Below, piece by piece: positions 2,690-39,268 of a stretch of DNA of 43,393 nt; within the stretch, counting starts at the first letter, position 1; the number at the start of each line of letters is the position of its first letter. Position numbers and translations under genes: made by a program. Below the pieces are notes generated by a model that was given only the letters and a program-made list of their open reading frames with translations, was not told where the DNA came from and ran no database searches. The DNA comes from a virus. The stretch covers positions 1 through 43,393 of the IMG/VR virus record IMGVR_UViG_3300021963_000237, one strand, 5' to 3'.

Positions 2690-3799
2690 TTATGATTTAG
2701 TGTCACCCTTAACCCAGAAAGTTGTACTCAATGGTGGTGAAGATGGTTGTGAGTACAACTCGTTCATCCACAATATTCTGTATGTTCCAGCAGGTATTGC
2801 ACATCCACCAGGGACTACAACGTTTACTGCGGCGTTTGTTGCGTCAGGTACTCCGTCGTTGATAACAGATGTAGAACATGCACTACCAAATCCAACGTCA
2901 ACTGTCATATTATTCATAGAACCACCAACACCCGCTAATGGTATCCAAACAGTATACGTGTATTGAATTGCCGGATTTACTAAAGAAACATCGGTTTGAA
3001 TACTACCAAATGTATATTGGTTTTGAGCACATCCATAAGAATCAACGCCAGAACCTGAAGATTGTCTTATTGGACCATTTAAACTTGATACATTAGTTAT
3101 AAAGTTACCGACAGCTCCTGTCCAACCTGAGAATTGTGCATAAATTGCCATATCAGCAGCATAATTTGGACCTGCAGGAGTACCTGTGTTACCCCATCCA
3201 AAGAACGATGTCGCACCAGCATTAAACATATATGTACCTAAATCATTTAATGATGTACTATCTTGAGGTTCAGGGAATAAATAAGCACTAAATGCCGCAG
3301 AGCTCGGTGTTGGAGTATTAGTTGGGGTAAGAGTTGGTGTTGGGCTAAGAGTTGGGGTAAGAGTTGGTGTTGGAGTATTAGTTGGAGTCTCAGTTGGTGT
3401 AGGCGTATTTGTAGGTGTCGCACTTGGACTTAATCCAGGTGTTGGTGTTATAGTTGGTGTGATTGATGGTGTTGGAGTATTAGTTGGAGTCTCAGTTGGT
3501 GTTGGGGTATTTGTTGGTGTTGGAGTTTGAGTTACATTTGTTGGTGTAATACTTGGCGTTGGCGTTGGAGTTGGAGTACCACATTCAATAGTTATAACAA
3601 CTCCATTTAACATTTGAGTTCTTGTTTGTGCAGAATAATAAATTGATGAATCCAAATAAACATTGAATGGACCCAAAGCATTTGAGTTAGTTGTTAATCT
3701 GACAATATATGTTGAACATCCTGTTACCGTAAGTTGCTGTTCAATTTCATTATTACAACCCACAGCATTATTGGTAACAGTTATATTATGTGTAGCCAT
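2690..3799 (-). CDS. Virion/adhesin protein with Pro-Thr linker
   Basis: A 369-residue protein of unknown exact function. Residues 1-74 form a small N-terminal domain with three cysteines. Residues 75-168 are a low-complexity linker of TPTPT, TNTPTPT and TETPT units. Residues 170-369 form a globular C-terminal domain rich in Gly, Asn, Ser and aromatic residues, with no transmembrane segment. The same linker type occurs in the SprB-repeat protein two genes upstream, so both probably use it as an extended stalk between a virion anchor and an outward domain. I found no match to a named family. Its place between the SprB-repeat protein and the collagen-like fibre suggests a fibre or receptor-binding role, which is inference. 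The stop is TAA and the start ATG has no Shine-Dalgarno sequence. Confidence 0.8.
3300..3577 (-). repeat. Pro-Thr coding repeat with 35-bp direct repeats
   Basis: A low-complexity tract (plus strand rich in GGTGTTGG and GTTGGAGT) encodes the Pro-Thr linker. Near-perfect 35-bp direct repeats lie at 3366-3400 and 3468-3502, 102 bases apart (34 codons), so recombination would change linker length without breaking the frame. Confidence 0.85.
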
Positions 3800-3863: not shown

Positions 3864-3888
3864 ACAACTAATTACTTAAGTTAGTTGT
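3864..3888 (-). other. Inverted repeat over the end of the 102-residue gene
   Basis: ACAACTAA (3864-3871) and TTAGTTGT (3881-3888) form an 8-bp stem with a nine-base loop across the stop codon of the 102-residue gene. No T-tract follows on the coding strand, so it is a poor intrinsic terminator. It could slow 3' decay of the transcript. Confidence 0.3.
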
Positions 3889-4184
3889 GTGATGTTGATA
3901 TTGACTATACAAGAAGCCATTTCAATTGTGATTTCAAAAGCACATCCGAATGTACAATCTAAAATTTTGAATACCTCACAACCATTCGCATCAATCAATT
4001 TTAACATTACTTCAGGCGCAGTTTCAAATATGGAAGGTATAGTTGCATTATAAGTTTGAACAGGTGGAACAGGACCAGGTAATATTGTTGCAATATATGT
4101 TTCATTATTACCATATACGTCCGAAAGTATGACTTCTATTGGATATGTACCACCCGATATTTCAGTTATTCTTATTTGTACCAT
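3876..4184 (-). CDS. Small hypothetical beta-rich virion protein
   Basis: A 102-residue protein with no recognised family. It alternates hydrophobic and polar residues in a beta-sandwich-like pattern, and has cysteines in the segment NGCEVFKILDCTFGCAF and near the C-terminus. The ISGGTYPIEVILSD start and the CTFGC segment recall the small Ig-like units of the SprB-repeat protein next to it, so it may be a detached single repeat-like domain. It starts 11 bases after the stop of that gene, behind an A-rich leader, and is probably co-translated with it. A role in the adhesin complex is inferred only from position. Confidence 0.7.
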   Translation of the reverse strand: MVQIRITEISGGTYPIEVILSDVYGNNETYIATILPGPVPPVQTYNATIPSIFETAPEVMLKLIDANGCEVFKILDCTFGCAFEITIEMASCIVNINITQLT

Positions 4185-4195
4185 TTTTTTTTAAT

Positions 4196-7100
4196 TTAAA
4201 GCGAACCACATATTTCATATGTTGCAGTACCGTTAATTACATATATAGTGTTTGTTGGTGAATACACATAAGGAGCTGAAATTCCATCACTTAATATTTG
4301 TGTTGAAACTCCTGTTGTTGGATTTATACTATATAACCCACCATCAACATTTGTTTGGTACCTACTTACATAAACTTTTCCATTAGCATAATTGAACTCC
4401 GCAGACCTTAGACTTGTGTAATTAAATACACCTGAAATCAATGCAGTAGAAACTACAGTATTAGTTGAACAGTTTATTTTATTTATTGTTATTACCGTAG
4501 GACTTACATATGAAATAGCATATATCATATTATTTATTATGTCTAAAGCTAAAACAAGGTTTCCACTTGTCGGTAATGTTGTATCAAGCACCAAATTATT
4601 ACCAACGCAATTATAAATTGATGTTGGTGTGTATAATTTATTGTTATTTGGATTATAAACAAAACTTGAATTTAACCCAGGGAGAGATGTTATTGTTGTT
4701 GCATAAGCATTTGTTACTCCATCAATAATAGAAACTTCACTTTGACTTAAAGATGAATTATTTGAAAAAACATAAATCTTATTTAACACAGAATTATGTA
4801 TAATATCACCACGACCAGTTGGTGTTGGTAACGCTATTGTTGGTATTGTTGTTGTGGTTGTTGTACCACCAATTAAATCTCTAATTAAAATTGAATTCGG
4901 ATAATTACCACTCCAACTATATAATTTTTCGTTTATTGGGTTATACCCCAATAATAACGCATTTGTTGATGGCCATGTAAATGTTGTTGATGTTGATGTA
5001 CTATTCGGTGTAAATGATATAACATTACCGCTAGTTCCTAAAACATACATTTTATTACTAATTGGACTATATACAATACCCTTTCTACCTACAGCGGTGT
5101 ATCCATTAGTAATTGGTAAAACATTTTTGATTTGGTCTGAACAAGATGTGGTTGAGCTAGGCGTATTAGTTATTGTAGGCGTATTAGTTATTGTAGGCGT
5201 TACAGTTTTGGTTGGAGTAATACTCGGTGTGATTGTATTTGTTGGAGTTATTGATGGTGTTGGGGCAATTGTTGGTGTAATTGTAGGTGTTGGTGTTATT
5301 GTAGGTGTTGGTGTAGGTAATTCACAAGATAAACACATTATATCGTATACAATAGTTAACTCAACTACTATTTCTTGACCATTTAGTGTTAAATCTCCTG
5401 GGTCAGTTGTTACTGTTATTTGATTACTTAATGAATTAAAAGTAACACTTCCAACACCAGGTATTGTTAATAGTAAATCTTTAACAACATCGTAATAAAG
5501 GTTATCACTTGGAGCAGAAACCAATGTAGTTCCAGTAAAGAAATTTTGACTTGTGGTTAATCCCATAGGATTAACAGACACTTTTACACCAAATACCGCA
5601 GAAATTAAATCACAATCAACTTTATCATTGGTTAAATCATTAAACCCTTCATTCAACATTTGAAGTAATCCATATTTAGTTTGTGATTGAATACTGAATT
5701 GTTCAGCACCCATAACATAAGTTTGATATGATATATATTGAGCGTCACAATCTATATTTGTAGTTTGACTTAATGAACATCCAATTGAATCGACAACCGT
5801 TAAACTGTATGTTCCAGCAGTTAATCCACTTATTTGTATTTGTTGTGGATTACTCGGGACATTACCTGACCAATTGAAATTAAATGGTGGTGTACCCGTT
5901 GAAATAAGAGCCGTTAGTGTTCCATCTGAACCGTTACCACATGAAGTACTATACAATGTAAAATCTAATGGGTTGCTTTCACTCACATAAACTTGCGTTG
6001 TTTGAGTACAACCTGTTGCATCTGTAACAGTAACAGTATGTTGACCCGCAGAAACATTTGTAAATGTAACTGCAGACAATGTTGTATTAAAAACATTTTG
6101 AATACCATCTAACGAATAATTGAATGGTGTTTGTCCCCCATTTGTTTTTTCAACATAAACGGTACCATTACTTTGATTACAAGTTGTTCCCGTAATTTCA
6201 GTTGTTATTTCAAAAGAATTTGTTGTAAATAAAGTTATTTCATCCATGTACGAACATCCCGATGAATCTTGAACCACGACTGAGTAAGTTCCCGTTGATA
6301 AATTACTAAATAATTGGGCGGTTTGACTATTAACAATATTAAGGGTGTTACCTCCAGGGTATATTAAAGTGTATGTGTATGGTGAAACACCTCCCGCAAC
6401 TGAAACAGTAATTGAACCGTCAGTACTTGAGCAAGTTGAACTTTGGCTTGATATAGTAACCGATGCAATTCCAAGTGGTGTTAATAATGTAGTGCTAACA
6501 ACTATATTACAAAAAGCTGAATCTGTAACTGATATTGAATAATCACCCGCAGATAACCCTGAAATTGACCATGTCTGACTGTATTGAATTTGTACATCAC
6601 CTGTTGAAGCGGAATAGTAATAAGGTGCGGTACCACCTGTTATTTGAAGAGTCAACACTCCGTCGGAAGAAAAACAAGTTGGTTGTACTGCAGTAAATGT
6701 ACCAAATCCAAGAACATTAACATCAGTAACTACTCCCGTTTGGGTTTGAGAACAACCCAAACTATCTGTGACAACGACAGAATATGTACCTGATGTTAGT
6801 CCAGTAATACTACTCGTAGTGAAACCATTACTCCATAGATACGTATAAGGTGCAACACCCGTTTGACCTGTTACAATTATCTTACCAATAGGTGTACCCC
6901 CACAACTTGAATTTGGTACAACGTAAAGACCGTAATTAAAAGGGTTACTATCTTCAATAATAAAATCGGAAGTTTTACCACTACATCCACCTAAATCTTC
7001 CGCAACCATATAATATGTTCCCGCAGTCAAGTTACCAAAAACTACGTTTGATGTGTTAGTATTTGCCGAAGTAATATATGTATCATCCGCAAAATATAAA

Positions 7101-7459
7101 TAAAAATTTGTTGATGAAAAATTTGATGTGGAAGTACCAGTAACTGAACCATTATCCAATGCACAGGTGGTATTTTGAATTCCGATTACACTTGCACACA
7201 CTCCTGAAGAAACAGGTATGTTAATATAAAATTGTAGGTTTGTTGGTATCGTACTATCATTAACATTTACACCGTATGTATCAGCACTTAATGAAGTTCT
7301 AATAGATGGGTTAGTAGTAACAACGTCAGCACCTAAATTAGGCACAACCCACTGTACGGTATAAGGTGGAGTACCTCCAGTTAGATATAATTCGATTACA
7401 CCAGAATTTGTATTCTGACAATCTCCCGTTAAAATTATATTATATTGAAATGCAGACAT
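4196..7459 (-). CDS. Phage adhesin: SprB-type repeats, PT linker, beta-propeller
   Basis: A 1087-residue protein in four parts. Residues 1-570 hold about seven repeats of 75-85 residues resembling SprB repeats, each ending in forms of GL.AGTYSV.V.DS.GC (for example LTSGTYSVVVTDSLGC). Residues 570-705 form an unassigned domain. Residues 710-770 are a TPTPTITP linker. Residues 775-1087 contain seven blade-like repeats with cores such as YNPNNNKLY, FNYANGKVYV and YSPTNTIYV, typical of YVTN-type seven-bladed propellers. SprB is the gliding adhesin of Flavobacterium, and these repeats are common in Bacteroidetes surface proteins. A phage receptor-binding adhesin is the likely role; sugar or protein binding by the propeller is inference. 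The start lies two bases from the preceding stop. Confidence 0.85.
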   Translation of the reverse strand: MSAFQYNIILTGDCQNTNSGVIELYLTGGTPPYTVQWVVPNLGADVVTTNPSIRTSLSADTYGVNVNDSTIPTNLQFYINIPVSSGVCASVIGIQNTTCALDNGSVTGTSTSNFSSTNFYLYFADDTYITSANTNTSNVVFGNLTAGTYYMVAEDLGGCSGKTSDFIIEDSNPFNYGLYVVPNSSCGGTPIGKIIVTGQTGVAPYTYLWSNGFTTSSITGLTSGTYSVVVTDSLGCSQTQTGVVTDVNVLGFGTFTAVQPTCFSSDGVLTLQITGGTAPYYYSASTGDVQIQYSQTWSISGLSAGDYSISVTDSAFCNIVVSTTLLTPLGIASVTISSQSSTCSSTDGSITVSVAGGVSPYTYTLIYPGGNTLNIVNSQTAQLFSNLSTGTYSVVVQDSSGCSYMDEITLFTTNSFEITTEITGTTCNQSNGTVYVEKTNGGQTPFNYSLDGIQNVFNTTLSAVTFTNVSAGQHTVTVTDATGCTQTTQVYVSESNPLDFTLYSTSCGNGSDGTLTALISTGTPPFNFNWSGNVPSNPQQIQISGLTAGTYSLTVVDSIGCSLSQTTNIDCDAQYISYQTYVMGAEQFSIQSQTKYGLLQMLNEGFNDLTNDKVDCDLISAVFGVKVSVNPMGLTTSQNFFTGTTLVSAPSDNLYYDVVKDLLLTIPGVGSVTFNSLSNQITVTTDPGDLTLNGQEIVVELTIVYDIMCLSCELPTPTPTITPTPTITPTIAPTPSITPTNTITPSITPTKTVTPTITNTPTITNTPSSTTSCSDQIKNVLPITNGYTAVGRKGIVYSPISNKMYVLGTSGNVISFTPNSTSTSTTFTWPSTNALLLGYNPINEKLYSWSGNYPNSILIRDLIGGTTTTTTIPTIALPTPTGRGDIIHNSVLNKIYVFSNNSSLSQSEVSIIDGVTNAYATTITSLPGLNSSFVYNPNNNKLYTPTSIYNCVGNNLVLDTTLPTSGNLVLALDIINNMIYAISYVSPTVITINKINCSTNTVVSTALISGVFNYTSLRSAEFNYANGKVYVSRYQTNVDGGLYSINPTTGVSTQILSDGISAPYVYSPTNTIYVINGTATYEICGSL
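5155..5320 (-). repeat. Pro-Thr coding repeat of the SprB-type adhesin
   Basis: A G/T-rich plus-strand tract of GTTGGTGT and ATTGTAGGTGTT units encodes the TPT linker between the repeat domain and the propeller. The composition matches the tract at 3300-3577, so recombination between the two genes is plausible. Confidence 0.8.
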
Positions 7460-7461
7460 TA

Positions 7462-10443
7462 TTATGAGCAGTTAATACTAATGTTTATTCCCACATTTAA
7501 AGAAACCGTATCAACGATATTCTGTGTTAAACATGATAAATTTGTAATGGTTAATGTATTACCATTTAGGTAATATGTGTAGCCATAATTATATAATTGA
7601 GGTAAATAATTTATCAAAGCATTTCTCCACTGTGTGTTGGTTGGTACATCCATCAAACCATAACCTGTGTAAAAAGAATCTTTAATAATTTGTTGTCCAT
7701 TTATTTCCAAATCAACATACCAATCACTTAGTACCGAGTTTTGAGAACATTGGTTTAATGTTAAACCACTTTGAGCTAACATATTGTTAACTCTATTCAC
7801 TAAAATAGCACTGAAGTTTGATACACTAACATCACCGTTAAACCATGGGTAGATATTAAAGTCAGCGTATTCAGTGTTACATGTATAGTCAAAAATATTA
7901 GAAATAATAAAACACGGGTCAACAGGAACTGGTATGAATTGACATCCTCTTTGTCTTCTATAAACAAACTTCTGTTTGTTCAAAACTGAGTTTTCTAATC
8001 TAACTCCGCCATTCCAAATTGTAGTCGCAGGAACCATTTGTTCAACTAACTTTGTCCAATAAGGCCCAATACCATTTACATAATCAATTAACTTTTGGTA
8101 AGTATATTTGTTATTTGGTAATCCAACTGTTTGTTCTGATTCAATGTATTTCCAAAAAATAGATTGTAGTGTAGGGTAACCACCTGTTTTACCATCTGTG
8201 ATATATTGTCTGTTTCTTGTGTTAATCATATTTTCCCAAAATGTTTGAGAAAACTCAAAGAATGTTTTTTTCTTAGGTTCAGGATTTATATATGTCCAAT
8301 CAACCCCACCAGGAACAGGATAACCAACCGTTAAACCTGATTCAGGGATAGGATAGTCGTATTGCCTTGATTGTACCCAAACGTCATAAACCAATCCTTG
8401 TGCAGGATTTAAAAATATGTCCACATTCTTAACATTCAACACCAATTTTTCATTATCAACAAAATAATATGCATTGTAATCTCCTTGTGTTGAAACCCTA
8501 ATTTTATCGTCAGTTGATAACCATGATTTATTGTTATCCACCACTTTTTGTAATTTAAACCCTTCCATCATATAAGGGAAATCCCTGTATCTGTTAAGAT
8601 ATGTTTGACCATAAGTAAATGGGGTTAATTGGGTTTGAATGTTGTAATTTTGACCGGTAAAAACATTGCCAGTTATTTGAACTTCATCAGGGCTTCTATG
8701 TTGAGGTGTTGTTTCATACCAACCAGCTCCAATTTGAAAGAAGTATGTTTCCGTATTTGCAGGTGCCTTTGGATAACCTTCAAAGTCCATCGGATAATCT
8801 TCTAGCAAGATGTTAACATTTTGATAAGTTGCGGTTGAGGTAAACGCGGTATATAATTGACCTTTAACTTTATACGTTTCGCCAGGTAAATAACTTGGAA
8901 TATTATTCACATAGGTACCTCCCGATATTTGAGCCCATTGATTATAAAATTGGTCTAAGTTAATTTTTTGGTCGGCTAAATAAATGTGTTCATTATATTC
9001 AATCAATGAATCAGGAGCACCAATCAATCTTAATAAAAATTCTATTGACCTTCTTGTTCCTTTGGATTTAAAAAGATAGGACGCATTAAGAATTAAATTT
9101 CTATAATACGCGTAATTCAACTCTGTTGGTGTAAGAGCCCTTGCATAACCAGGGTATGTTGGTGTTGAGGTATTACCAAATACTGAACTTAAAAAATCTT
9201 CGTTTGTAATCGGTGAAAAATTTGAAGACCATCCTAAAGTTCTTGATAAGTTAACTAATAACTCTGAAGGTATATCATTTGAAGGATTATAGTTTACTGA
9301 ATTCATGTAAGCTAATCCATCAATAAATTGTTTAATTTGGTCAAAACTTCGACCATAAATCTGAAATATTTTTTCAGCTTTTCGTCCTAGCGTATCAAAC
9401 TCTTTTAAAGAATCTGAAATTAAAAATCTTGAAATTAAATTTGTTTTAAAAGAATCAAGATTTACCGCAATTTCTTGAATCTGTTCCAAATAATTGTCAA
9501 ATAAAAATGAACGAATATCTAAATTCCATGGTCCTTGTTTTGGCCATGTCACTTGTTGAAAATCTGTATATGTTTGACCATATTCATTTTGTTGAGGCAC
9601 TTGAAAAACGGCGGTATATTCTGGTCTTACCAATCTATTTACTAAGAATTTTTCAACTTCATCAAAAGATTCTTGAAATACTTTATCCACAATTAAATCA
9701 TTAGGTCTGATTTGATAATCATCATTGATTGTGGTTGCGGTTGTTCCGAACGGCGCTCCTGAAACATAAAATTGAAGATAACCTAACGATAAAGTTTCAG
9801 ATGGTACAAACGACAATACTTTATATATGTTATCGTTAATACTAATACAATAATCAAGGTAAGTATTATATAAATTTCTGTATGGAGATACGGTAATTTC
9901 TCTGATTGACAAATTAGTCGTAGCATTTATAGAATAATCAATATCGAAGGGATTATTGATTCTATCTACATTTACTTTGAAATATGTTTCATCATTCTGA
10001 GTGTCATAAACAATATCGTATGCCGTGTTAGCGGTAACAAAAAAATCATTATTGAACATAACATCCAATGATGCAGGAAAATAGTTTATAATTTTTGTAA
10101 TTGAAACACTAAATCTTTTAGATAGTGACCCATACATTGAAAAGTTTAAAACTTGTGAAATGTCATAGTTGGGATAAACTCTGAATTGAGTTGCAAGTAT
10201 TCTTCTACTTTGTTCCAAATCATCAATCCCAAGCATATCAAGGGATATCGGTTCAGAAAAAGCACCAACATTAAAAGTTCTATTAACCTTTTCCGTTACA
10301 CCAGTGGTAAATTCAAAGTTACCTTGTGTAAGTCCTCCACCCTCAACAGTTTGTAATCCTACAATGTTGTCAGAAAAGGTACCCGCACCACTACCTGGTC
10401 TTGGGGGGTAAAAGTATTTAGTATTTTTTGTTTCTACCGCCAT
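7462..10443 (-). CDS. Baseplate wedge-type structural protein (gpI/gp7-like candidate)
   Basis: A 993-residue soluble protein without signal peptide or membrane segment. Around residues 455-490 it has the segment SKGTRRSIEFLLRLIGAP. This resembles the helical motif of P2 gpI-type tail proteins and the related part of T4 gp7/Afp12 wedge proteins, where a similar 'KGT..A...LL...G' pattern occurs. The N-terminus is Gly/Pro-rich, and the C-terminal third is rich in Asn and Tyr with scattered Cys. It follows the gp25- and gp6-like genes in the same transcription unit, as gpI follows gpW and gpJ in P2. The start overlaps the preceding stop as TAATG, so translation is probably coupled. A structural baseplate role is likely; the exact equivalence is uncertain. 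Confidence 0.7.
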   Translation of the reverse strand: MAVETKNTKYFYPPRPGSGAGTFSDNIVGLQTVEGGGLTQGNFEFTTGVTEKVNRTFNVGAFSEPISLDMLGIDDLEQSRRILATQFRVYPNYDISQVLNFSMYGSLSKRFSVSITKIINYFPASLDVMFNNDFFVTANTAYDIVYDTQNDETYFKVNVDRINNPFDIDYSINATTNLSIREITVSPYRNLYNTYLDYCISINDNIYKVLSFVPSETLSLGYLQFYVSGAPFGTTATTINDDYQIRPNDLIVDKVFQESFDEVEKFLVNRLVRPEYTAVFQVPQQNEYGQTYTDFQQVTWPKQGPWNLDIRSFLFDNYLEQIQEIAVNLDSFKTNLISRFLISDSLKEFDTLGRKAEKIFQIYGRSFDQIKQFIDGLAYMNSVNYNPSNDIPSELLVNLSRTLGWSSNFSPITNEDFLSSVFGNTSTPTYPGYARALTPTELNYAYYRNLILNASYLFKSKGTRRSIEFLLRLIGAPDSLIEYNEHIYLADQKINLDQFYNQWAQISGGTYVNNIPSYLPGETYKVKGQLYTAFTSTATYQNVNILLEDYPMDFEGYPKAPANTETYFFQIGAGWYETTPQHRSPDEVQITGNVFTGQNYNIQTQLTPFTYGQTYLNRYRDFPYMMEGFKLQKVVDNNKSWLSTDDKIRVSTQGDYNAYYFVDNEKLVLNVKNVDIFLNPAQGLVYDVWVQSRQYDYPIPESGLTVGYPVPGGVDWTYINPEPKKKTFFEFSQTFWENMINTRNRQYITDGKTGGYPTLQSIFWKYIESEQTVGLPNNKYTYQKLIDYVNGIGPYWTKLVEQMVPATTIWNGGVRLENSVLNKQKFVYRRQRGCQFIPVPVDPCFIISNIFDYTCNTEYADFNIYPWFNGDVSVSNFSAILVNRVNNMLAQSGLTLNQCSQNSVLSDWYVDLEINGQQIIKDSFYTGYGLMDVPTNTQWRNALINYLPQLYNYGYTYYLNGNTLTITNLSCLTQNIVDTVSLNVGINISINCS

Positions 10444-19936: not shown

Positions 19937-21775
19937 TTATGAAAAAGTTACTGATTGGAAATTCTTAACCGAGACTCTAATATCTTTATTAGGGTATCTA
20001 ACTTGATATACTTGAGATGGTTGAGCAAATATTGTATCGTCAACAGGACCAATCAGTTTTATTTCAGGATTAGTGTAAATCATAGAAGTTTCAGCAGATG
20101 AATATTGTCCACCAACCTCGTTAAATACTTCCATATTTGCAACAGTTAAAACACCATTTGTATTTTGAATTAAACTTCTAATCTCAGAAAGATATACATT
20201 CTGTCCAAGTTGTCTGATTTGAGGATTAAAGTATGTTGAGATTTTATCAACCACACTAGAAATCACTTGACCTGAGTTCTGAGCAGAATCCAAAACAATA
20301 GAAACATCTAAACTTAAATCAATAACTTCAGCACTGAATATTGAAATGTAATCATTCATCATTCTATAATTTGATAAATAATTTGCAATATTTTGTCTAA
20401 GTGTGTTTGATACGACGTTTGTTAATTTACCTGAAGTATCATACGATAAAATTTGAATTAGAATTTTGTTGTCATTTTCAGTGATTGATACCTTTGCAGG
20501 TGCCCCAAATTGAGCTGGCATGTTTCTAATTAACGATTCGTAATCTTGAACCGTAACTGCTCTTTTTTGTGCCGCAAAATTAAATGAAACATAATTTCTA
20601 ATTTCTTCTAAAGATGGTATACCGGCTCCACCTACTGCAGCAGTTACGTTATTACATCTTAAAGAATTAACTACAGATGAGTTTGTTGTTTCAGATGGTC
20701 CATTAACAAAGAAAGATACAGTTCCGATTTGGTTAATCACATTTGTACCTAAGTTTGTCGCCAATCCACCACCAACTCTATATTGAATAAATAATGTTGA
20801 GTTAGGCGTTAAAGTTGCACCCAAAGATAAGTTGTTTGAATATTTTTGTAATTCTAATGTTGTACCTAAAGTTGTAAATTGATTCAATTGGTCTTGAGCA
20901 GTATTTGTCCCACCACCAAATGTCATCTTTTTAAATCCTTCAGGTGTATACTCAGTGATGAATCTATCTTGTGTTTGAATATATCTACCAACTTTGATAC
21001 CTGGTTGGTCAGAAACTTTTGTAGGGTCTTCAACAAACACTCTGTCTTCTGCTAATGCATCCACTTCATACCATCTATTTTCCAACCCTAAAAATTCAGC
21101 AGTTGTTGGTGTATTTGTATAGTTGGTACCATTTTTTAATAATACACTTGTAATACCCAAAACATTTTTTTCAGGTAAAAATAATTCGAAGAAAGGTTTT
21201 ACATCATTAGCATTTATAACTCTTTTGAATACTTTGGTAATACCGTTTACAACCACTTCTCTTTTTGTAATTGTATAGTTTACCAAAACATTATTGGCAT
21301 TAAAATTAGGTATTTTTAATCTGTTTGGAAATCCCTGAGCATTGTATGGTGACGCAAAGTCAATATCGTAAACGTTTTCAAAAACAATACCAGCACCAAC
21401 TACTTGTGAACCTCTTGTCAATGTTCCGAGATATCTTTCATCTTCCTTGTCTCCAAAAGCAGGAACAGTAATTGAAAAATCAACTAAAGCAACCGAAGGT
21501 CTTTGTCCTGGTAATTTTAAACCATAAGTTCTTGCAATGTTATAAATTGATGACCTTTGTTGGGCATATTGTAATACAGTTTCCTGAATACTTCTGTCAA
21601 TATTATAATGTAAGTTGTCGGCTACCGCAGCATTTAAATCAAGAAATACCGAAAATACCGATGCATCATTGAAATCCTGAATTAAATCAGGATAATATGT
21701 TCTTGTATAATTTAAGAGCTCAGTTCTTATTGACTGATAATCCCTACTGGTATATGATATTCTATTATTTGCCAT
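19937..21775 (-). CDS. 6: Baseplate wedge protein gp6 / baseplate J-like
   Basis: A 612-residue protein that reads as a T4 gp6/P2 gpJ-type wedge subunit, which dimerises around the baseplate ring. The N-terminus ISYTSRDYQSIRTELLNYTRTYYPD and the following FNDASVFSVFLDLNAAVADNLHYNIDRS match the usual gpJ/gp6 opening. The central beta region ends in the TVQDYESLIRNMP segment, typical of the conserved C-terminal part of the family. Length is close to T4 gp6. It starts five bases after the gp25-like stop, the same gp25-gp6 (W-J) order as in many contractile tails. Not odd in composition. The family call is firm. Confidence 0.9.
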   Translation of the reverse strand: MANNRISYTSRDYQSIRTELLNYTRTYYPDLIQDFNDASVFSVFLDLNAAVADNLHYNIDRSIQETVLQYAQQRSSIYNIARTYGLKLPGQRPSVALVDFSITVPAFGDKEDERYLGTLTRGSQVVGAGIVFENVYDIDFASPYNAQGFPNRLKIPNFNANNVLVNYTITKREVVVNGITKVFKRVINANDVKPFFELFLPEKNVLGITSVLLKNGTNYTNTPTTAEFLGLENRWYEVDALAEDRVFVEDPTKVSDQPGIKVGRYIQTQDRFITEYTPEGFKKMTFGGGTNTAQDQLNQFTTLGTTLELQKYSNNLSLGATLTPNSTLFIQYRVGGGLATNLGTNVINQIGTVSFFVNGPSETTNSSVVNSLRCNNVTAAVGGAGIPSLEEIRNYVSFNFAAQKRAVTVQDYESLIRNMPAQFGAPAKVSITENDNKILIQILSYDTSGKLTNVVSNTLRQNIANYLSNYRMMNDYISIFSAEVIDLSLDVSIVLDSAQNSGQVISSVVDKISTYFNPQIRQLGQNVYLSEIRSLIQNTNGVLTVANMEVFNEVGGQYSSAETSMIYTNPEIKLIGPVDDTIFAQPSQVYQVRYPNKDIRVSVKNFQSVTFS

Positions 21776-21780
21776 CTTAT

Positions 21781-22251
21781 TTAAATATTGATAATTACAA
21801 AATCACTTTGACCAAAAGTTGAGCCGTTGGTTGAGTAATCTATTCTTATTTTTGCAGTGTATTCTGAGGTTCCCTTACCTGGAAATCGATAGATTGATGA
21901 TTCACTAGTTCCAATTAAATTTTGTCCTGTAGCTATATCAACTTCTTCTTTTGGGTCGGCTGGTGTTATACTTAAACTATTGACTAATAAATTTGGCATA
22001 AAATTTTCAATAGCATCTCTGATATCTGATTCAATAGCATTAAATGTTAATCCATCAAATGGTTCAAAAAGAAACTCATATAATCTTGTTCCAAATTCTG
22101 GTAAAAAGTATCTCGAACCTTTTCTTGTCAATAATAAGTGAATCAAGTCAGCCTTAATTTCTTGCGCTTGGAGTTCCGTTAATTCTAAATAATCACCTCT
22201 TCTAGAATCTCTGAAGGGAAAATTTATACCATAAGTAATACCATTTGCCAT
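21781..22251 (-). CDS. 25: Baseplate wedge protein gp25-like
   Basis: A 156-residue member of the GPW/gp25 family, a wedge subunit next to gp6 that helps start sheath assembly. The signature is visible: residues about 22-70 read ELTELQAQEIKADLIHLLL, then TRKGSRYFLPEFGTRLYEFLFEP, the usual 'T..GSR...P.FG..L..LLFEP' core. A C-terminal extension of about 45 residues goes beyond the short P2 gpW form. It is first in the wedge operon, downstream of the nrdA terminator and a TATTTATA motif. The ATG at 22249-22251 follows an AT-rich leader without Shine-Dalgarno sequence. Confidence 0.92.
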   Translation of the reverse strand: MANGITYGINFPFRDSRRGDYLELTELQAQEIKADLIHLLLTRKGSRYFLPEFGTRLYEFLFEPFDGLTFNAIESDIRDAIENFMPNLLVNSLSITPADPKEEVDIATGQNLIGTSESSIYRFPGKGTSEYTAKIRIDYSTNGSTFGQSDFVIINI

Positions 22252-31606: not shown

Positions 31607-34600
31607 TTATAAAGTGAATGGAGGTCCAGTCACTGTTTGAATTAACACTTGACCATTTGGTGGTGAAGTATATCCATATGGTGTATATTTCACAACCAAT
31701 TTAAAAGTTCCTTTACCTGAGATTTGACAAAGGTTAGTGTATTTGGTATCTATACCGCCTTCTACGTTAGCCGACGCTCTATTTCCATTCGCATCTTCAA
31801 AATATCTATCAGCATAATTTTGTTCACTAAATGATGATATATTAAATTGGAAAGTAATATATCCACTGTTATCAGGTTTTTTTACGTTAAAATATTGCCA
31901 TCCGTTTCCTTGTAATGTAGGACTTTCACCTAAATAAGTTATTGACGATGGAAGAGGGGCAAATGTTGGTGTTGTTGAAGGTGTTGGTGTAAAGTTAAAA
32001 TTAAATGTTTGTTGAACGTTTTGAGGGTTTTTAACTTTATCAGTAGGAACTGCAGTAACAGTAAATTTAATTTTAACAGTTTGACTAGAAGTAACAGGAG
32101 TTGTTTTAAATTCATCAATTGGGTTAGTTATTAACATACTTTGAACATTTGCATATGTTATAGTAAACGTATTACTTGAAACATAACTTGATGTTTTTGT
32201 GTTTACACTTCTGTTTAATGTTTCAGTTTTAACATTATTAACAACATTATTATCATAAACAGATATTTCCATTTCAACTTCTTGTTGTAATGTCCAAGTA
32301 TTAAGTGCTGCCGCTTGTGGATTTACAGAAACCGTTAATTGTTGTGTAACCCCACCTGTAGTTGTTTGTGTTTGACCGTTTAAGGTCACAGGTCCTGTTT
32401 GTTGTGGTTGTGTATTTGTGTTAGTAGAATTACTTGGCACTGGTGTAACCTGAGCCGGATTATACGTAAAGTTAACCACACTCGCACTATCACCATGAGT
32501 ACCCAATACAATTATAGAATTGTTTTGTGCGACCGTTGTATTACTAAATGGAACAATAACACTTATATTGAATGGATTGTTTATTGTAATACCCGTAGTT
32601 GTTGTTACTCCATTTATTGTAACGCCAGTTACTTGGTCTAAATCTTTACCAATTATTGATAATATTGTACCACTAATACCCGATAAAGGTGAGAATGAAG
32701 TCACTGTTGGTGGTGCACATACAATAGGTACAGTAGTTGTATTCAAATTATTTGTAGGTGTTGTAGTACCTGCATAAGTTTTTGCAATTTTCTCTTTTTG
32801 TTTTTTATCTTCTTTTCTGGCTTGGGTTGTTGAGGCAACATTTAATCCAGCAGGTCCCGCAGATTTAAATCCTTCTTTAAAAGTATTATCCAATTTTGTA
32901 AATTCACTAACATGGGCGTCGTAATAACTTTCTGAAACTTTTTCGTACGCACCATCCCAATAACAAACATAAAATTTAGTTATTCCCATACCATTACCAC
33001 TTACCCTACCAAAAACTCTTTCGACATTAGGCGATAATCTTGAAATCATAAAATCAAAAAACCTACCAATATCATCAAAGTTTGCAACAGGTAATGATAA
33101 CTTTTTGTTTGCGGATGTGTTTACATTAACACACGAAAATGTTTTTGGTGTAAAAAATCCTCTACCTGTACCATAATTATTAGTTAAAGGTAGATTAACA
33201 AAGTTGTTGTTATACCCATAAAATACATTTTCTTGGTATACCTGCGCATAACAAATCAAATAGATTAAAACTTGTAAATCAGGGTCATTTGTTTTCTTCT
33301 CTAATTCAGTAACAAATTGTTGAGGTGTTAATGAAACTGTTGTTGATTTTTTAGCATCACCCCAATCTATGTAAGCCGAGTTAAGTTTTTCACTACAAGA
33401 ATTTTCTGCAGCAGCGCTATTATCTCCAACTTGACTAACGTATTTAGCCGCATCAACATCTGTTGTAGGTTTAATGTCAACTTCAGTTTTTTTACTTTTG
33501 ATAATCGCTTCAATTTTAGTCAATAAATTTTGATTTATACTTTGTAAATAATTTTCGATTGCAGGTAAGTCATAAATTCCTTGTCTTGTACCCGTAAATG
33601 AGGTTCTAAAATTACCTTGCGTTATTGCATGGTCTACTTGTGTTATCAGATATGGACCATTAAACATTGGAACGTGTCGTAAATTAAAATACATTGTTGG
33701 TTGTAACAAAGCATTACCTAAACATTCTATTTGACATTGGTAACTTCTTTGTTTATACAAATTGTACAAACTAACATTTTGAGTTGCAGTATTCCTACCA
33801 TTAGCTTGGTCAATCATATTTATTTGAGTTTGAATTGACTCTGACGTGGCTTTACCTCCATCCATTGAAACATTCAATGAATAAAATATATTTTGATTTC
33901 TAATACCAACGTCAACATTAAATCCAACACATTTGTTTGATACCGCCCAGTCTTTTTTACCTACAATATTTTCAATTAAAGGGTTATCAGACGCTCTTCT
34001 CAATTCAAACGCATCGTCTCTAAACCTTGAATTACCTTTTGGTAAATCTAAATGAGTTGATGGTTGTCCCGCATAAAAACAAATCATTTTGGGACCTGAA
34101 TTTCTATAATCCACATTTAAGAATGTACCCCACATGTTATCAGCAAAATCTAAATTTCCTTCAGTTTGTGGGATTGTTGTCCCATCAACATCTTGAATAT
34201 TATAAAAATTAACATAAGCGGGTAATGGCATTACATTAAATTTATTTTTGATTAACATACCACTCATGAATGTGAACACACTCATTTCCATGTTTAAATT
34301 GTTTTCTTTAAACATGTCTTTTAAATCAAAAATATCAACAACAATTGTATCCCCAATGTTTCTTGAAGCCCTGTCCAAAAACATAACGTCTTCAAATAAT
34401 GTTTTTGAGAGGTAATCAGAACCCGCAACCCATTTATCATTTAACGCCTTAAAAACTTCATAGTTTTCAACTTTACTTTGTTGACCATCAATAGCACTAG
34501 TAATTACTCTCTCAGGTAACTCTTGTTGGTCGGGTAATTCAACTCTAACATTATTCAAAACTTGATTTAAAATGTTGTTCTGTAAAACATCAGTTGTTCC

Positions 34601-37600
34601 CAAATATGTTTCTAATCTATTTTTGAATACATCACTAGATAAGTTTGGTGTATATAACTTTTGAGTTGCATACATTTTTATTATTGGCGATAGTAATACA
34701 ACATTGTTTTCAGTAAACTCAATATTATTATCAATAAAGAAATCGGTTATGTATGAACCATTATTATCATAAACTAAATTTGGTATTGTTGAAAATCCTA
34801 CTTCGGTTTCTAAGGCTAACCAAGCTTTATCATTTTGAGCTTTAGATGTTGCAAGACTTATTGAACCTGAAGCGGATGGTAAACTATTTTTAACATATGG
34901 GTTAAAAACAATTGGGTCCGTAATTGGAAAATTGTTACCTCCTTGAGCTAAATAAGATGCAAATATTCTTCTTTTATATCCCGATGGATTACCATACTTA
35001 AGTATCACATCATACTCCATAAAGGCCTTAATTGTACTCGAAAATAATATAAGTTGTTTTTCACCAATTGTATTAAAATATTGACCTGTGGTTAAAGAAC
35101 TACTTTGTGGTTCAATTTCCATCATAGTAGTAAATAAATTTTGGAAATTCTTAAATAAAGCATTAGGGTCAACAGGTGACTGGTCAATTGGGACATTTAG
35201 TTGAGTTCCCAAATCAATATTACCCACAGGTTTAGAAAAATTTAAAAACTCTTGTTCAAACTTATTTAAAATACTTTTATCAAAAACTGAAAATATTTCT
35301 TCAATTTTTGAGTAATCTCCGTCCATTAACAAATTAAATGCTGATTGTTTTGTTGTACCAGTTTTAATTTTGTTAACATAAGCATCTGGTTGTGGTTTGG
35401 TAATTTGAGAATTATTGAAATAACCAAAGTTTGGTGATGACCAAAGTAATCTAACCGAACCATTATATATTGATGGGTTGTCAATAAAAGGACAAACAGG
35501 TGCATTGGCAACTAAACATTCTGTACTTACTTGGTTTATTTGTGAACCAAAAGATGGTACCACATAATATTTTAAACTGTTTGTATTATTTGTTGGGTTA
35601 CAAAGCGCCCCATCTGTTATCGGCGGTCCGACAACACTTGGTAAAACCACCGACCATGTTTGAATTTTTGAAAAAGTTATTGGTGATGTTAGTGGAAATG
35701 CGATAGTTTGGGCATTTATGTTTGAATCGGTGAAGTTAAAAACTTTAACTCCATTATCAATACTTGATTGAATTTCAGCATCAGTATAGTTTACGTATAA
35801 ATCATAACCATTATAAAAAACATTAAAGTCGTTAATTACTTTTGGATAAAACCCCGTCTGAAGTGAGGTAATATTGTTAGACACATTTTGTAATGTAATT
35901 TTATTCTCACCATCAAATTTAAATGTATATGTTTTTGTATCTGAACTTGTAACTGGGTCAAAGTTTGTTTTGTATTCAAAATTTTTCCAACACGTATCTA
36001 ATATGTCAACATTACTTGTTTTATATGTTTTATATCTGTACCATATTGACCCCATTTTAAGTACCCAAGCATATGGCATCTTATGTATGGCACCATATTT
36101 TTTGAAACAAGATGCAATATAATCTAAGTCACTTGAAGCACCAAAAGTTTTATACTTTTCTTTTAGGGAAGCTAAAGGTAAAGAGTTAATAAAAAGATAC
36201 GCGGCTTGAGTATATGGATATGGGTCTTTTCTTCTCCATTGATAAACACCATTTTGTATTGCATTTATAAAATATGGAGTATTCAACATTGATGTTGTTG
36301 TCTCAACATTAACATTTCTGCTTGGCGATAAATAATTTACGTATCCCTCGGTTGGCACAAAGAAATCAGGGTCTTTTCTTATATCATAAAATGCAGATAA
36401 ATTAGTTACGGTTACTTGATTTGCAGGATTTGAAACTTTCAAATATGAAAAATTTGTAACAGGTCTATTTGTTGTGTAATCATATACACTATTAAAATTA
36501 GAAATTACATCTCTATCCTCAAAAACTGTTAAAACTCTATTTGTATTATATACCGCATTTTTTGCACTATCAACACTATTTGCCATATGGGTTGAAACCC
36601 ATGTTGGGTCAGTAAATGGATAAGTATCAATAACTAACGGTTCATTATTAACACTTTTAACTAATTGTAATAATCCTTCAGTTTTTGTATTTGTTTGAGG
36701 TTCTTTACCCAAATCATTCAAACTTAAAATGTTGAAAGAATTTTGGGTTAAATTTCTAATATATGGCGTTACAAAAAAATCTCTAATATAGTCTTGATAT
36801 GCTCTACCTGTACCCTGATTCGAAATATTTTCCAAAAAAGTTGGGTAGTTTTGTGCAGTAATATTATAATTTTTTAATTTAAGTGTAATATATGGTGAAC
36901 TTACACCTAATCCTGTAACAATATTATTTGTTTCTGCACTAACAATCAATTTGGTAAGTTGTTCTAATTGATTATTATTTGCACGTACAAATCCTGAGTA
37001 ATTTGCACTTAAAAATTGTCTTTCCCAAATTTCATAAAAAAACTTAATCTCTTCTTTGTTTACATACGCAATACCCTCGGATGGATATTCTATAGCATTT
37101 ACATTTATAACATTTGTAGTGTTTTGACTATTGATAGGTGGTTGTACGACAGGTTGGTCAAATTTTTGAGTTAACCCTTTCATGTATTCTTCAACAAATT
37201 CTACTTCAGGCCATTTATTGTATAAAAATCCTTTAGTTAAATTCACTACAGATGGGTCTGCAATATATTTTAATTGGAATCTTCCTTTTTTATCTTCAGG
37301 TGTTTCAACAAAAAATTGAGGCCATGGATATACAGGTATCTGACCGTTTACCAACCCTTGATTTGAAGCTTGAGCGGTTGCACTAATTTTTGTGTCGTCT
37401 AAAGTATCTGTACCTTTTGCTGAAGATGGGTTGTCTAATATTGCACTTTTTCTTATAGGGTCGTATCTTACATTCCATGCATTTGTATGTACTTCATCAA
37501 GTAATCGAATGAATCCTTCTGCGGATGCCATGATTACCGCACAAATGTTTCTGACCGTTGGTTTAAACCCAATTCCAGTTGAAGAGTTTTCAATTTTTTT

Positions 37601-39268
37601 TGCTAAGTCCGCAGTAATTGCAGTTTCATACTCTGAAAGTTTTCGATTTGCTTCTGTTTCCATCTCAGATAAAAGATTCTGAAAATCTTTAAATACAAAC
37701 AATGGTGGAATAACAATATTCCCCAAAAGGTTTTCAAACCTTTTATCGGCCGTGTCTTTTTCTCTAACGGGTTTAATTTGTCTTTCTAATAAAGTTTGTA
37801 CCCGTAAAGTATCATCATCAGTTGGCGCTAAAATCCCAGTCAAAGAGGTTGTTGTTTTAACTAAATCAATGTCAGTAAAAGCAACTTGTTTTACAAATGT
37901 ATTATACGTGATACTATTTTTGATAGGTGTTTTACTATTAACCCCCAAAGTTTTATTTTCTGCCAAATATCCCCTAAAGTCAACCGTAAATGCACTTAAA
38001 AAACTAACCGCTTCTTGTTTTTTTAATAAATCATCTATAAATTCTTGTTTAAAAATGTAACATTCTTGACCAGTACCTTTTAGTATTATAGGTTTTGGAT
38101 TCATATAAATGTTGAACCATGATTTGTTATCACCATAAACTCTATTAAAATAATTTGTCAGAGTTTCTTTGTAAGTTCTAATATTTGTTAATGGTTCAAT
38201 AATAACAGGTGGGTATGAATTTTGTATTGTTTGTTCAAATGTCAATAATTTATTCATTAGTTGAGCCAATGTTAGCTCAGGAAAATCAGGACTTATCAAT
38301 CCCTTTGCTTTATATTCACTATAAACTTGAGATATTTTATCATAACCTTTTGAACTAATAACTTCACTTACAATGTTATCTGAACTTATATTAGATTGTT
38401 TAGATGTTACATTATCTATACCATTTAGTCTAGATTGTGTATTGGCATTTCCAACCCCTTCGGGTGATGTTATTGATTTTGAAACACTAAAAGTTTTACT
38501 ATACATGTGTGGTGTTGCAAACAAACTACCCATAGAAACTTCATTCAAAATATTAAACTTATATCCAACAAACTCTAATTCAATTTGGTAATTACCGCTG
38601 AACGTATTAAATCTAGCATTGAAAGTTTTTAAATTAAGTTGGTATCTTATTGCCTGCCCATAATATCCTTTTAGTGTTAGATAAAATGGGCAATATGGTA
38701 AGTTAAAAAATGCAGAATATGGTGAATCGTTTCCAAGTTGGAAAAGTGCTCTTCCTTGGATATCTTCAAGGGTCATACTCACACTAGGAACAAATGATGT
38801 GTTTGTTTTTACATTGATACTTGTAATACCTAATAAACCGTTATCTGTTGCTTTACCTCCTGGGTCTGTCAAAGTAGTTTTAACATATGGGTTTGTACCG
38901 TCTTTAGGGTCGATAATGTCAAATTGTTGTTGATTATCACCTAAACCATTTATAGTACCTTTACCTGTCAATTCATCATAATATCCTGTGGTTAAATTAC
39001 TTTTTTCTGTTGGCCTCAAAAAATTCATTTTTGCAACAGATATAGTTCTAATTCTATCTTCAGGACTTCCACCTACAGATAACTTTGTTCTTGGAACAAC
39101 TTCAGCTTCCAAGTTGGCAAACATAACCAAATTTTCATGGTCAACTAATCTTTCTTTAACATTTTTTAGAGCATCAATAGTTTTGTTCGGGTCAACTAAA
39201 ATAATATTGTTGTAATCGAACTCCACATATATATGTCCACTTTTGTCACCTTGTACATTACCTGCCAT
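31607..39268 (-). CDS. Giant baseplate hub/tail-tip protein (gp27-like, enzymatic domain, IPT/TIG)
   Basis: A single intact 2553-residue frame. The first 1800 residues are beta-rich and unassigned. Residues about 1836-1903 read YQCQIECLGNALLQPTMYFNL, then VPMFNGPYLITQVDHAI, the barrel pattern of tail hub proteins (T4 gp27, gpD: 'G.....PG....L....F.G.Y.V..V.H'). Residues about 1956-2109 include CYAQVYQENVFYGYNNNF with Glu2013. This is spaced like the catalytic Glu and NN(L/F) motif of glucosaminidase-like peptidoglycan hydrolases. Residues about 2176-2269 form an IPT/TIG Ig-like domain (PTVTSFSPLSGISGTILSI). The C-terminus is fibre-like. It overlaps the LysM-like gene by 11 bases. The hub call is moderately firm, the enzyme call tentative. 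Confidence 0.8.
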   Translation of the reverse strand: MAGNVQGDKSGHIYVEFDYNNIILVDPNKTIDALKNVKERLVDHENLVMFANLEAEVVPRTKLSVGGSPEDRIRTISVAKMNFLRPTEKSNLTTGYYDELTGKGTINGLGDNQQQFDIIDPKDGTNPYVKTTLTDPGGKATDNGLLGITSINVKTNTSFVPSVSMTLEDIQGRALFQLGNDSPYSAFFNLPYCPFYLTLKGYYGQAIRYQLNLKTFNARFNTFSGNYQIELEFVGYKFNILNEVSMGSLFATPHMYSKTFSVSKSITSPEGVGNANTQSRLNGIDNVTSKQSNISSDNIVSEVISSKGYDKISQVYSEYKAKGLISPDFPELTLAQLMNKLLTFEQTIQNSYPPVIIEPLTNIRTYKETLTNYFNRVYGDNKSWFNIYMNPKPIILKGTGQECYIFKQEFIDDLLKKQEAVSFLSAFTVDFRGYLAENKTLGVNSKTPIKNSITYNTFVKQVAFTDIDLVKTTTSLTGILAPTDDDTLRVQTLLERQIKPVREKDTADKRFENLLGNIVIPPLFVFKDFQNLLSEMETEANRKLSEYETAITADLAKKIENSSTGIGFKPTVRNICAVIMASAEGFIRLLDEVHTNAWNVRYDPIRKSAILDNPSSAKGTDTLDDTKISATAQASNQGLVNGQIPVYPWPQFFVETPEDKKGRFQLKYIADPSVVNLTKGFLYNKWPEVEFVEEYMKGLTQKFDQPVVQPPINSQNTTNVINVNAIEYPSEGIAYVNKEEIKFFYEIWERQFLSANYSGFVRANNNQLEQLTKLIVSAETNNIVTGLGVSSPYITLKLKNYNITAQNYPTFLENISNQGTGRAYQDYIRDFFVTPYIRNLTQNSFNILSLNDLGKEPQTNTKTEGLLQLVKSVNNEPLVIDTYPFTDPTWVSTHMANSVDSAKNAVYNTNRVLTVFEDRDVISNFNSVYDYTTNRPVTNFSYLKVSNPANQVTVTNLSAFYDIRKDPDFFVPTEGYVNYLSPSRNVNVETTTSMLNTPYFINAIQNGVYQWRRKDPYPYTQAAYLFINSLPLASLKEKYKTFGASSDLDYIASCFKKYGAIHKMPYAWVLKMGSIWYRYKTYKTSNVDILDTCWKNFEYKTNFDPVTSSDTKTYTFKFDGENKITLQNVSNNITSLQTGFYPKVINDFNVFYNGYDLYVNYTDAEIQSSIDNGVKVFNFTDSNINAQTIAFPLTSPITFSKIQTWSVVLPSVVGPPITDGALCNPTNNTNSLKYYVVPSFGSQINQVSTECLVANAPVCPFIDNPSIYNGSVRLLWSSPNFGYFNNSQITKPQPDAYVNKIKTGTTKQSAFNLLMDGDYSKIEEIFSVFDKSILNKFEQEFLNFSKPVGNIDLGTQLNVPIDQSPVDPNALFKNFQNLFTTMMEIEPQSSSLTTGQYFNTIGEKQLILFSSTIKAFMEYDVILKYGNPSGYKRRIFASYLAQGGNNFPITDPIVFNPYVKNSLPSASGSISLATSKAQNDKAWLALETEVGFSTIPNLVYDNNGSYITDFFIDNNIEFTENNVVLLSPIIKMYATQKLYTPNLSSDVFKNRLETYLGTTDVLQNNILNQVLNNVRVELPDQQELPERVITSAIDGQQSKVENYEVFKALNDKWVAGSDYLSKTLFEDVMFLDRASRNIGDTIVVDIFDLKDMFKENNLNMEMSVFTFMSGMLIKNKFNVMPLPAYVNFYNIQDVDGTTIPQTEGNLDFADNMWGTFLNVDYRNSGPKMICFYAGQPSTHLDLPKGNSRFRDDAFELRRASDNPLIENIVGKKDWAVSNKCVGFNVDVGIRNQNIFYSLNVSMDGGKATSESIQTQINMIDQANGRNTATQNVSLYNLYKQRSYQCQIECLGNALLQPTMYFNLRHVPMFNGPYLITQVDHAITQGNFRTSFTGTRQGIYDLPAIENYLQSINQNLLTKIEAIIKSKKTEVDIKPTTDVDAAKYVSQVGDNSAAAENSCSEKLNSAYIDWGDAKKSTTVSLTPQQFVTELEKKTNDPDLQVLIYLICYAQVYQENVFYGYNNNFVNLPLTNNYGTGRGFFTPKTFSCVNVNTSANKKLSLPVANFDDIGRFFDFMISRLSPNVERVFGRVSGNGMGITKFYVCYWDGAYEKVSESYYDAHVSEFTKLDNTFKEGFKSAGPAGLNVASTTQARKEDKKQKEKIAKTYAGTTTPTNNLNTTTVPIVCAPPTVTSFSPLSGISGTILSIIGKDLDQVTGVTINGVTTTTGITINNPFNISVIVPFSNTTVAQNNSIIVLGTHGDSASVVNFTYNPAQVTPVPSNSTNTNTQPQQTGPVTLNGQTQTTTGGVTQQLTVSVNPQAAALNTWTLQQEVEMEISVYDNNVVNNVKTETLNRSVNTKTSSYVSSNTFTITYANVQSMLITNPIDEFKTTPVTSSQTVKIKFTVTAVPTDKVKNPQNVQQTFNFNFTPTPSTTPTFAPLPSSITYLGESPTLQGNGWQYFNVKKPDNSGYITFQFNISSFSEQNYADRYFEDANGNRASANVEGGIDTKYTNLCQISGKGTFKLVVKYTPYGYTSPPNGQVLIQTVTGPPFTL

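Follow-up and report, generated by a model that had tools for sequence, protein, structure and literature searches.

A phage protein with a fixed SprB-type core and exchangeable Pro-Thr-stalked tips, one of them a predicted seven-bladed propeller

SprB (PF13573) repeat proteins of Bacteroidota include the gliding adhesin of Flavobacterium johnsoniae. In phages, beta-propellers have been described in known or putative receptor-binding proteins, namely the receptor-binding protein of phage phi11, gp131C of PhiKZ and P2 of PRD1 (PMC4901313). The shuffling of tail-fibre and tailspike domains in phage receptor-binding proteins has been documented (PMC10684548), and modular Ig-like adhesins displayed on gut phages have been described (PMC13370021).

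The window analysed here is the whole 43,393-base virus record IMGVR_UViG_3300021963_000237 of IMG/VR. At positions 4196 to 7459 (minus strand, as are all genes of the window given with coordinates below) it contains one uninterrupted open frame for a 1087-aa protein, which consists of a SprB-type core, a Pro-Thr stalk and a propeller tip. The gene lies between upstream baseplate wedge genes and a downstream collagen-like fibre gene, all in the same orientation. Homologue matches identified the wedge proteins as gp25-like (21781 to 22251) and Baseplate_J/T4 gp6-like (19937 to 21775). Immediately upstream of the SprB-core gene is a conserved 993-aa protein (7462 to 10443), with 82-92% identity in the first three relatives. 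On the other side are a 102-aa gene of stem family 3 (3876 to 4184), a 369-aa gene (2690 to 3799) in which stem family 0 carries a Pro-Thr stalk and an AYLF-type tip (2693 to 3295), and the collagen-like fibre gene (1 to 2660), which is truncated by the contig end. This fibre gene has GTSGSSGTDG repeats and matches Pfam Collagen at 282 bits. Full-length genes of this kind encode 1706 aa in locus L135 and 1524 aa in locus L144, and the one in L135, where the match was tested, ends in a Peptidase_S74 chaperone (62 bits), a known feature of phage fibres. The preliminary description had placed the gene in a baseplate operon, and the wedge homologues upstream and the fibre gene downstream support a baseplate/tail-fibre neighbourhood.

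The window also encodes a ribonucleotide reductase, a DnaB-type helicase, a UvsX-like recombinase and a single-strand-binding protein. Together with the two wedge proteins, this gene content identifies the window as a fragment of a T4-like contractile-tailed phage. A 2553-aa protein without a confident Pfam match (31607 to 39268) is presumably a large tail or baseplate protein. The closest named relatives by wedge protein (an uncultured phage, Flavobacterium phage immuto and Microcystis phage Mel-JY01) are only 26-28% identical and therefore do not fix the host; from the SprB repeats, a Bacteroidota host would be our guess.

The core comprises residues 1-711 (5327 to 7459), a fixed length common to about 150 fetched IMG/VR loci; the core protein has 709-717 aa in the 133 loci that lack a tip. 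IMG/VR scans yielded over 500 relatives for the upstream 993-aa protein and over 200 for the core; the 80 best of either list were used, and the set is a sample of the nearest relatives in which some contigs appear in both lists. The SprB profile matched the 1087-aa frame with 78 bits (E 4e-22), against a curated cut-off of 28. A six-frame search of the whole window gave six SprB matches (7349-7420, 6824-6922, 6596-6700, 6365-6454, 6098-6205 and 5861-5944), every one inside this frame and three of them individually above the cut-off, and the six-frame search of 14 control genomes gave none. For residues 1-711, AlphaFold2 (64 sequences, mean pLDDT 82, pTM 0.34, a low value expected for strung-out domains) gave a model with seven beta domains, forming an Ig/FN3-like repeat region (5861 to 7420), and a conserved C-terminal alpha/beta domain at about residues 572-711 (5327 to 5746). 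The domains of the model match FN3/Ig-type structures in the PDB.

The profile score and the model thus agree with the seven SprB-type Ig-like repeats that had been read from the letters. The common repeat ending that was proposed with them, GTYSV.V.DS.GC, holds in part: the seventh repeat, Ig2, has no PF13573 hit and yet ends GTYYMVAEDLGGC, but Ig1 lacks the final Cys. Pairwise identity among the core repeats is only 25-43%. The alpha/beta domain is missing from the preliminary description. SprB repeats are already annotated for phages in databases, and Foldseek aligned the BFVD entry A0A6J5LD72 ('SprB repeat', uncultured Caudovirales phage) over the entire core at 34% identity. At 714 aa, this entry has about the length of the window core and, unlike the window protein, no room for a stalk or a propeller. 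In two large phage records, L198 and L199 (G007 and G006), a second, weak one-repeat match to the core was found well away from the tail module, in an open frame of 829 aa.

The gene belongs to a tail-fibre module and encodes a conserved stem with a variable C-terminal head, the features of a tail-fibre or receptor-binding protein. Because this stem-and-variable-head pattern occurs downstream of wedge genes and in one module with a fibre gene, the best reading is a tail appendage with a host-facing head: the protein is probably a tail or baseplate appendage with an exchangeable head on a fixed core, and the head probably binds the host surface. It was also considered that the protein may be a Hoc-like capsid decoration or neck-whisker fibre, whose Ig repeats would project from the phage head and whose tip would bind surfaces or mucus non-specifically. 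Hoc-like PHROGs match the core (E 7e-16 and 9e-8), the only PDB sequence hits are decoration and neck-whisker proteins (weak, E 0.02-0.15), and the Ig-only form is the commoner form of the family. However, the Hoc-like matches span the Ig repeats only, a domain common to many phage appendages, and the best stretch for PHROG 2973 (Hoc-like head decoration, E 7e-16) covers only residues 338-485. The position of the gene between wedge genes and a fibre gene with an S74 end in a relative, in one orientation, also argues against a decoration protein, which we consider unlikely.

The Pro-Thr stalk occupies residues 713-773 (5141 to 5323) and is missing in tipless relatives. The tip follows at residues 774-1087 (4199 to 5140). 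Its AlphaFold2 model (six sequences, pLDDT 81, pTM 0.83) is a propeller of 28 strands, seven blades of four. The top Foldseek matches of the model were YncE structures (E 4e-13), and VIA-align superimposed it on E. coli YncE with Z 29.3 and an rmsd of 2.8 over 286 residues. The stalk and the seven-bladed propeller of the preliminary description are therefore both recovered, the latter as a predicted fold; neither a missing SprB match nor a non-propeller fold, either of which would have spoken against that description, was obtained. A match to YVTN or other propeller families, by which it had proposed to recognise the tip, was not obtained: residues 774-1087 have no Pfam propeller match, and neither TIGR02276 nor NF052280 hit the window protein. 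The related propeller of L010 stayed below both cut-offs (18.4 of 27.85 bits for TIGR02276 and 15.6 of 400 bits for NF052280). Propeller relatives in IMG/VR were located by profile scan. Sequence searches of the PDB, run with the whole protein and with a profile of the propeller, had no hits, and named phages gave no match to the propeller, the L166 protein, the AYLF tip or a neighbour gene of L179.

The propeller might be an enzyme, such as a tip that degrades or modifies polysaccharides, rather than a lectin-like binder. Carbohydrate enzymes occur among propeller folds, and the nearest folds of the phi11 propeller are mostly carbohydrate-degrading enzymes, the top one being a cyclotransferase (PMC4901313). 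On the other hand, the best match of the predicted propeller is YncE, which is not an enzyme family, and the propeller matched no catalytic family in Pfam or NCBIfam. An enzymatic tip thus seems distinctly improbable, and a head that binds the host surface is the preferred reading.

To relate the core to cellular SprB proteins, we used 118 sampled Bacteroidota genomes, 24 of which contain SprB repeats above the cut-off, often dozens per genome. The phage core profile matched Bacteroidota proteins with E values as low as 2e-44, in alignments of up to about 390 positions, and because of these matches shared ancestry of the phage and Bacteroidota repeats is favoured over convergence. Among the matches listed, all fall within about positions 78-577 of the profile, and none in the 118 genomes reaches the C-terminal domain of the core beyond its first few residues. 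No Pfam match to a type IX secretion (T9SS) C-terminal sorting domain was found in the 1087-aa protein up to E 1. The preliminary description had suggested that the phage took up, or converged on, host surface architecture. Of these, convergence is the less favoured for the repeats, and a transfer may have run in either direction. Gliding-adhesin architecture as such is not supported: the phage core has a constant seven repeats, which are divergent but score over Pfam's cut-off, a fixed length, a private C-terminal domain, no T9SS tail in Pfam and no tie to gliding. The core is a length-locked phage protein. Its origin in a host gliding adhesin, captured recently and used as molecular mimicry, would account for the homology of the repeats with Bacteroidota SprB proteins. 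This origin is very improbable given the fixed length and repeat number, the private domain, the divergent repeats, the missing T9SS tail and the conservation of the core in more than 200 phage contigs, from which it follows that any capture would be ancient.

Comparison of the relatives showed that the preliminary picture of one fixed adhesin-plus-propeller protein is not valid across the family. Only 12 of the 79 distinct complete proteins extend past the core, and the extension is a Pro-Thr stalk, either bare or followed by a tip. At least six unrelated tips occur on the core: the propeller, a short Cys-rich domain, tips 10, 13 and 21, and the pair 22-23. The tip is dispensable to the family, since most relatives do without any. 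The closest core relative of the window among the fetched loci (L086, 89% identity) has no stalk, and its stop codon coincides with the start of the window's stalk. In the core tree, one clade of 15 rows holds all the extended proteins and some tipless ones; the tips require at least nine changes of state, and a single clade of the four propeller-bearing cores was rejected (p-AU 9e-10). Other arrangements were also observed. In L013, the frame at 6001 (1014 aa) encodes the core and then two Pro-Thr stalks with two different tips in series. In L007 (6001-9130) there is a stop in the stalk and the propeller is in another frame, and in L019 (frame at 6001) the stalk has no tip; these two may be intermediates of tip loss, or sequence errors.

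Several of the tips were also found on other stems, behind Pro-Thr linkers. Besides the SprB core, the propeller is carried by two unrelated stems in distant phages, stem 16 (L166) and stem 17 (L179). The L166-type protein (854 aa, in three separate long contigs) has the propeller flanked by Pro-Thr stretches together with a relative of the Cys-rich tip that L002 and L009 have on the core, whereas in L179 the propeller is part of a different protein of 502 aa. The SprB core was not found in the phages of L166 and L179, whose records may be incomplete, and their Baseplate_J proteins are 51-52% identical to that of the window phage. The window propeller shares 51-53% identity with those of L166 and L179 and 35% with that of L010, whose core is 81% identical to the window core. 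In a propeller tree with cellular outgroups, the window joins L166/L179 (support 95/95), while the rejection of a single clade of core-borne propellers was not firm (p-AU 0.07). Tip 10 occurs on the core in L021 and L097 and on the stem of the 102-aa gene in L124. The AYLF tip, which has about 60 relatives and matched nothing in Pfam, PHROGs or named phages, is on stem 0 (50 distinct proteins) and, in L004, L021, L028, L030, L033 and L097, on the 102-aa gene behind a Pro-Thr stalk. In L179, an 862-residue open frame (1-2586), mostly Pro-Thr-Ser repeat, lies upstream of more Pro-Thr-stalked genes.

Signs of recent exchange were found in the tip. L010 and L011, from different metagenomes, share 99.7% identity across 3 kb of upstream sequence and 99.8% across the core, but 93% in the stalk and 67-73% in mid-propeller, and then 96% again. 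Among 242 codons, 39 show silent differences and 47 a changed residue. L010 and L007 show the reverse pattern, with 90% identity between the tips and 80% between the cores. Recombination limited to the tip would explain both patterns, the alternative being chimaeric assembly. Adenine-directed hypermutation of the retroelement type was rejected for L010/L011, since the changes are of all kinds, at all codon positions and many of them silent. Recent gene-to-gene exchange through the linker DNA was not demonstrated: the longest words shared by Pro-Thr linkers were barely longer within a genome (median 17) than between genomes (median 15). What is established for the Pro-Thr stretch is thus that the joints lie there, and not that it brings them about. 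That the stalk-and-tip differences are largely metagenome assembly artefacts is the least probable explanation of all. In its favour are the repetitive nature of Pro-Thr DNA, the end of L011 within the propeller and the broken frame in the L007 stalk. Against it, identical tip families occur on identical stems in many contigs (the 50 stem 0 plus AYLF proteins), the 854-aa gene is in three separate long contigs and the window gene has one unbroken frame.

The architecture, the fold and the exchange of modules were established by computation, and we infer that the protein is part of the virion and binds a receptor. The fixed 711-residue core, with its seven SprB-type Ig repeats and phage-specific C-terminal domain, would be the structural stem, from which the flexible Pro-Thr stalk would display an exchangeable C-terminal head, here the seven-bladed YncE-like propeller. 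Independently of the core, heads would be gained or lost, exchanged for one another and in part recombined, and they would come from a domain pool also present on other Pro-Thr-stalked genes. The head would most likely bind a sugar or protein on the host surface, and a change of head would alter or widen adsorption. There is about an even chance that, more generally, a pool of stalked display domains is common to large aquatic phages, with Pro-Thr-coding DNA as the recurrent joint, the heads moving among at least five stem genes, within one module and between distant phages, and even blades within one propeller being swapped while the rest of the particle stays near-identical. If so, by joining heads from a pool to a fixed stem through a disordered Pro-Thr linker, uncultured phages would have a simple, reusable way to change their grip, the domains that set host range could be predicted from sequence in phages that have never been grown, and L010 and L011 would be a natural experiment, near-identical phages that differ in the head.

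E. coli YncE (3VGZ), the best structural match to the predicted tip, also has seven blades, but it is not a phage protein and is about 12% identical to the window propeller, and its function is not transferred. PhiKZ gp131C is seven-bladed as well and is located at the baseplate periphery (PMC4901313); it is outside the 50 matches listed for the propeller, which says nothing either way. Unlike the heads of phi11, gp131C and PRD1 P2, the window propeller is YncE-like, Pro-Thr-stalked and replaceable by unrelated domains, and the likeness is one of fold class. The Ig-like adhesins of gut phages were shown for epithelial cells and not for host bacteria (PMC13370021). The mosaicism reported for receptor-binding proteins is the same kind of domain shuffling, in a text that mentions neither propellers nor linkers (PMC10684548), whereas in the window family the exchange takes place at Pro-Thr stalks and across several stem genes. 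No earlier description of such a combination was found in the literature searched, which under-represents subscription journals. Propeller heads and domain mosaicism are already known in phages; what is new is that they are combined, and how far the exchange extends across several Pro-Thr-stalked genes.
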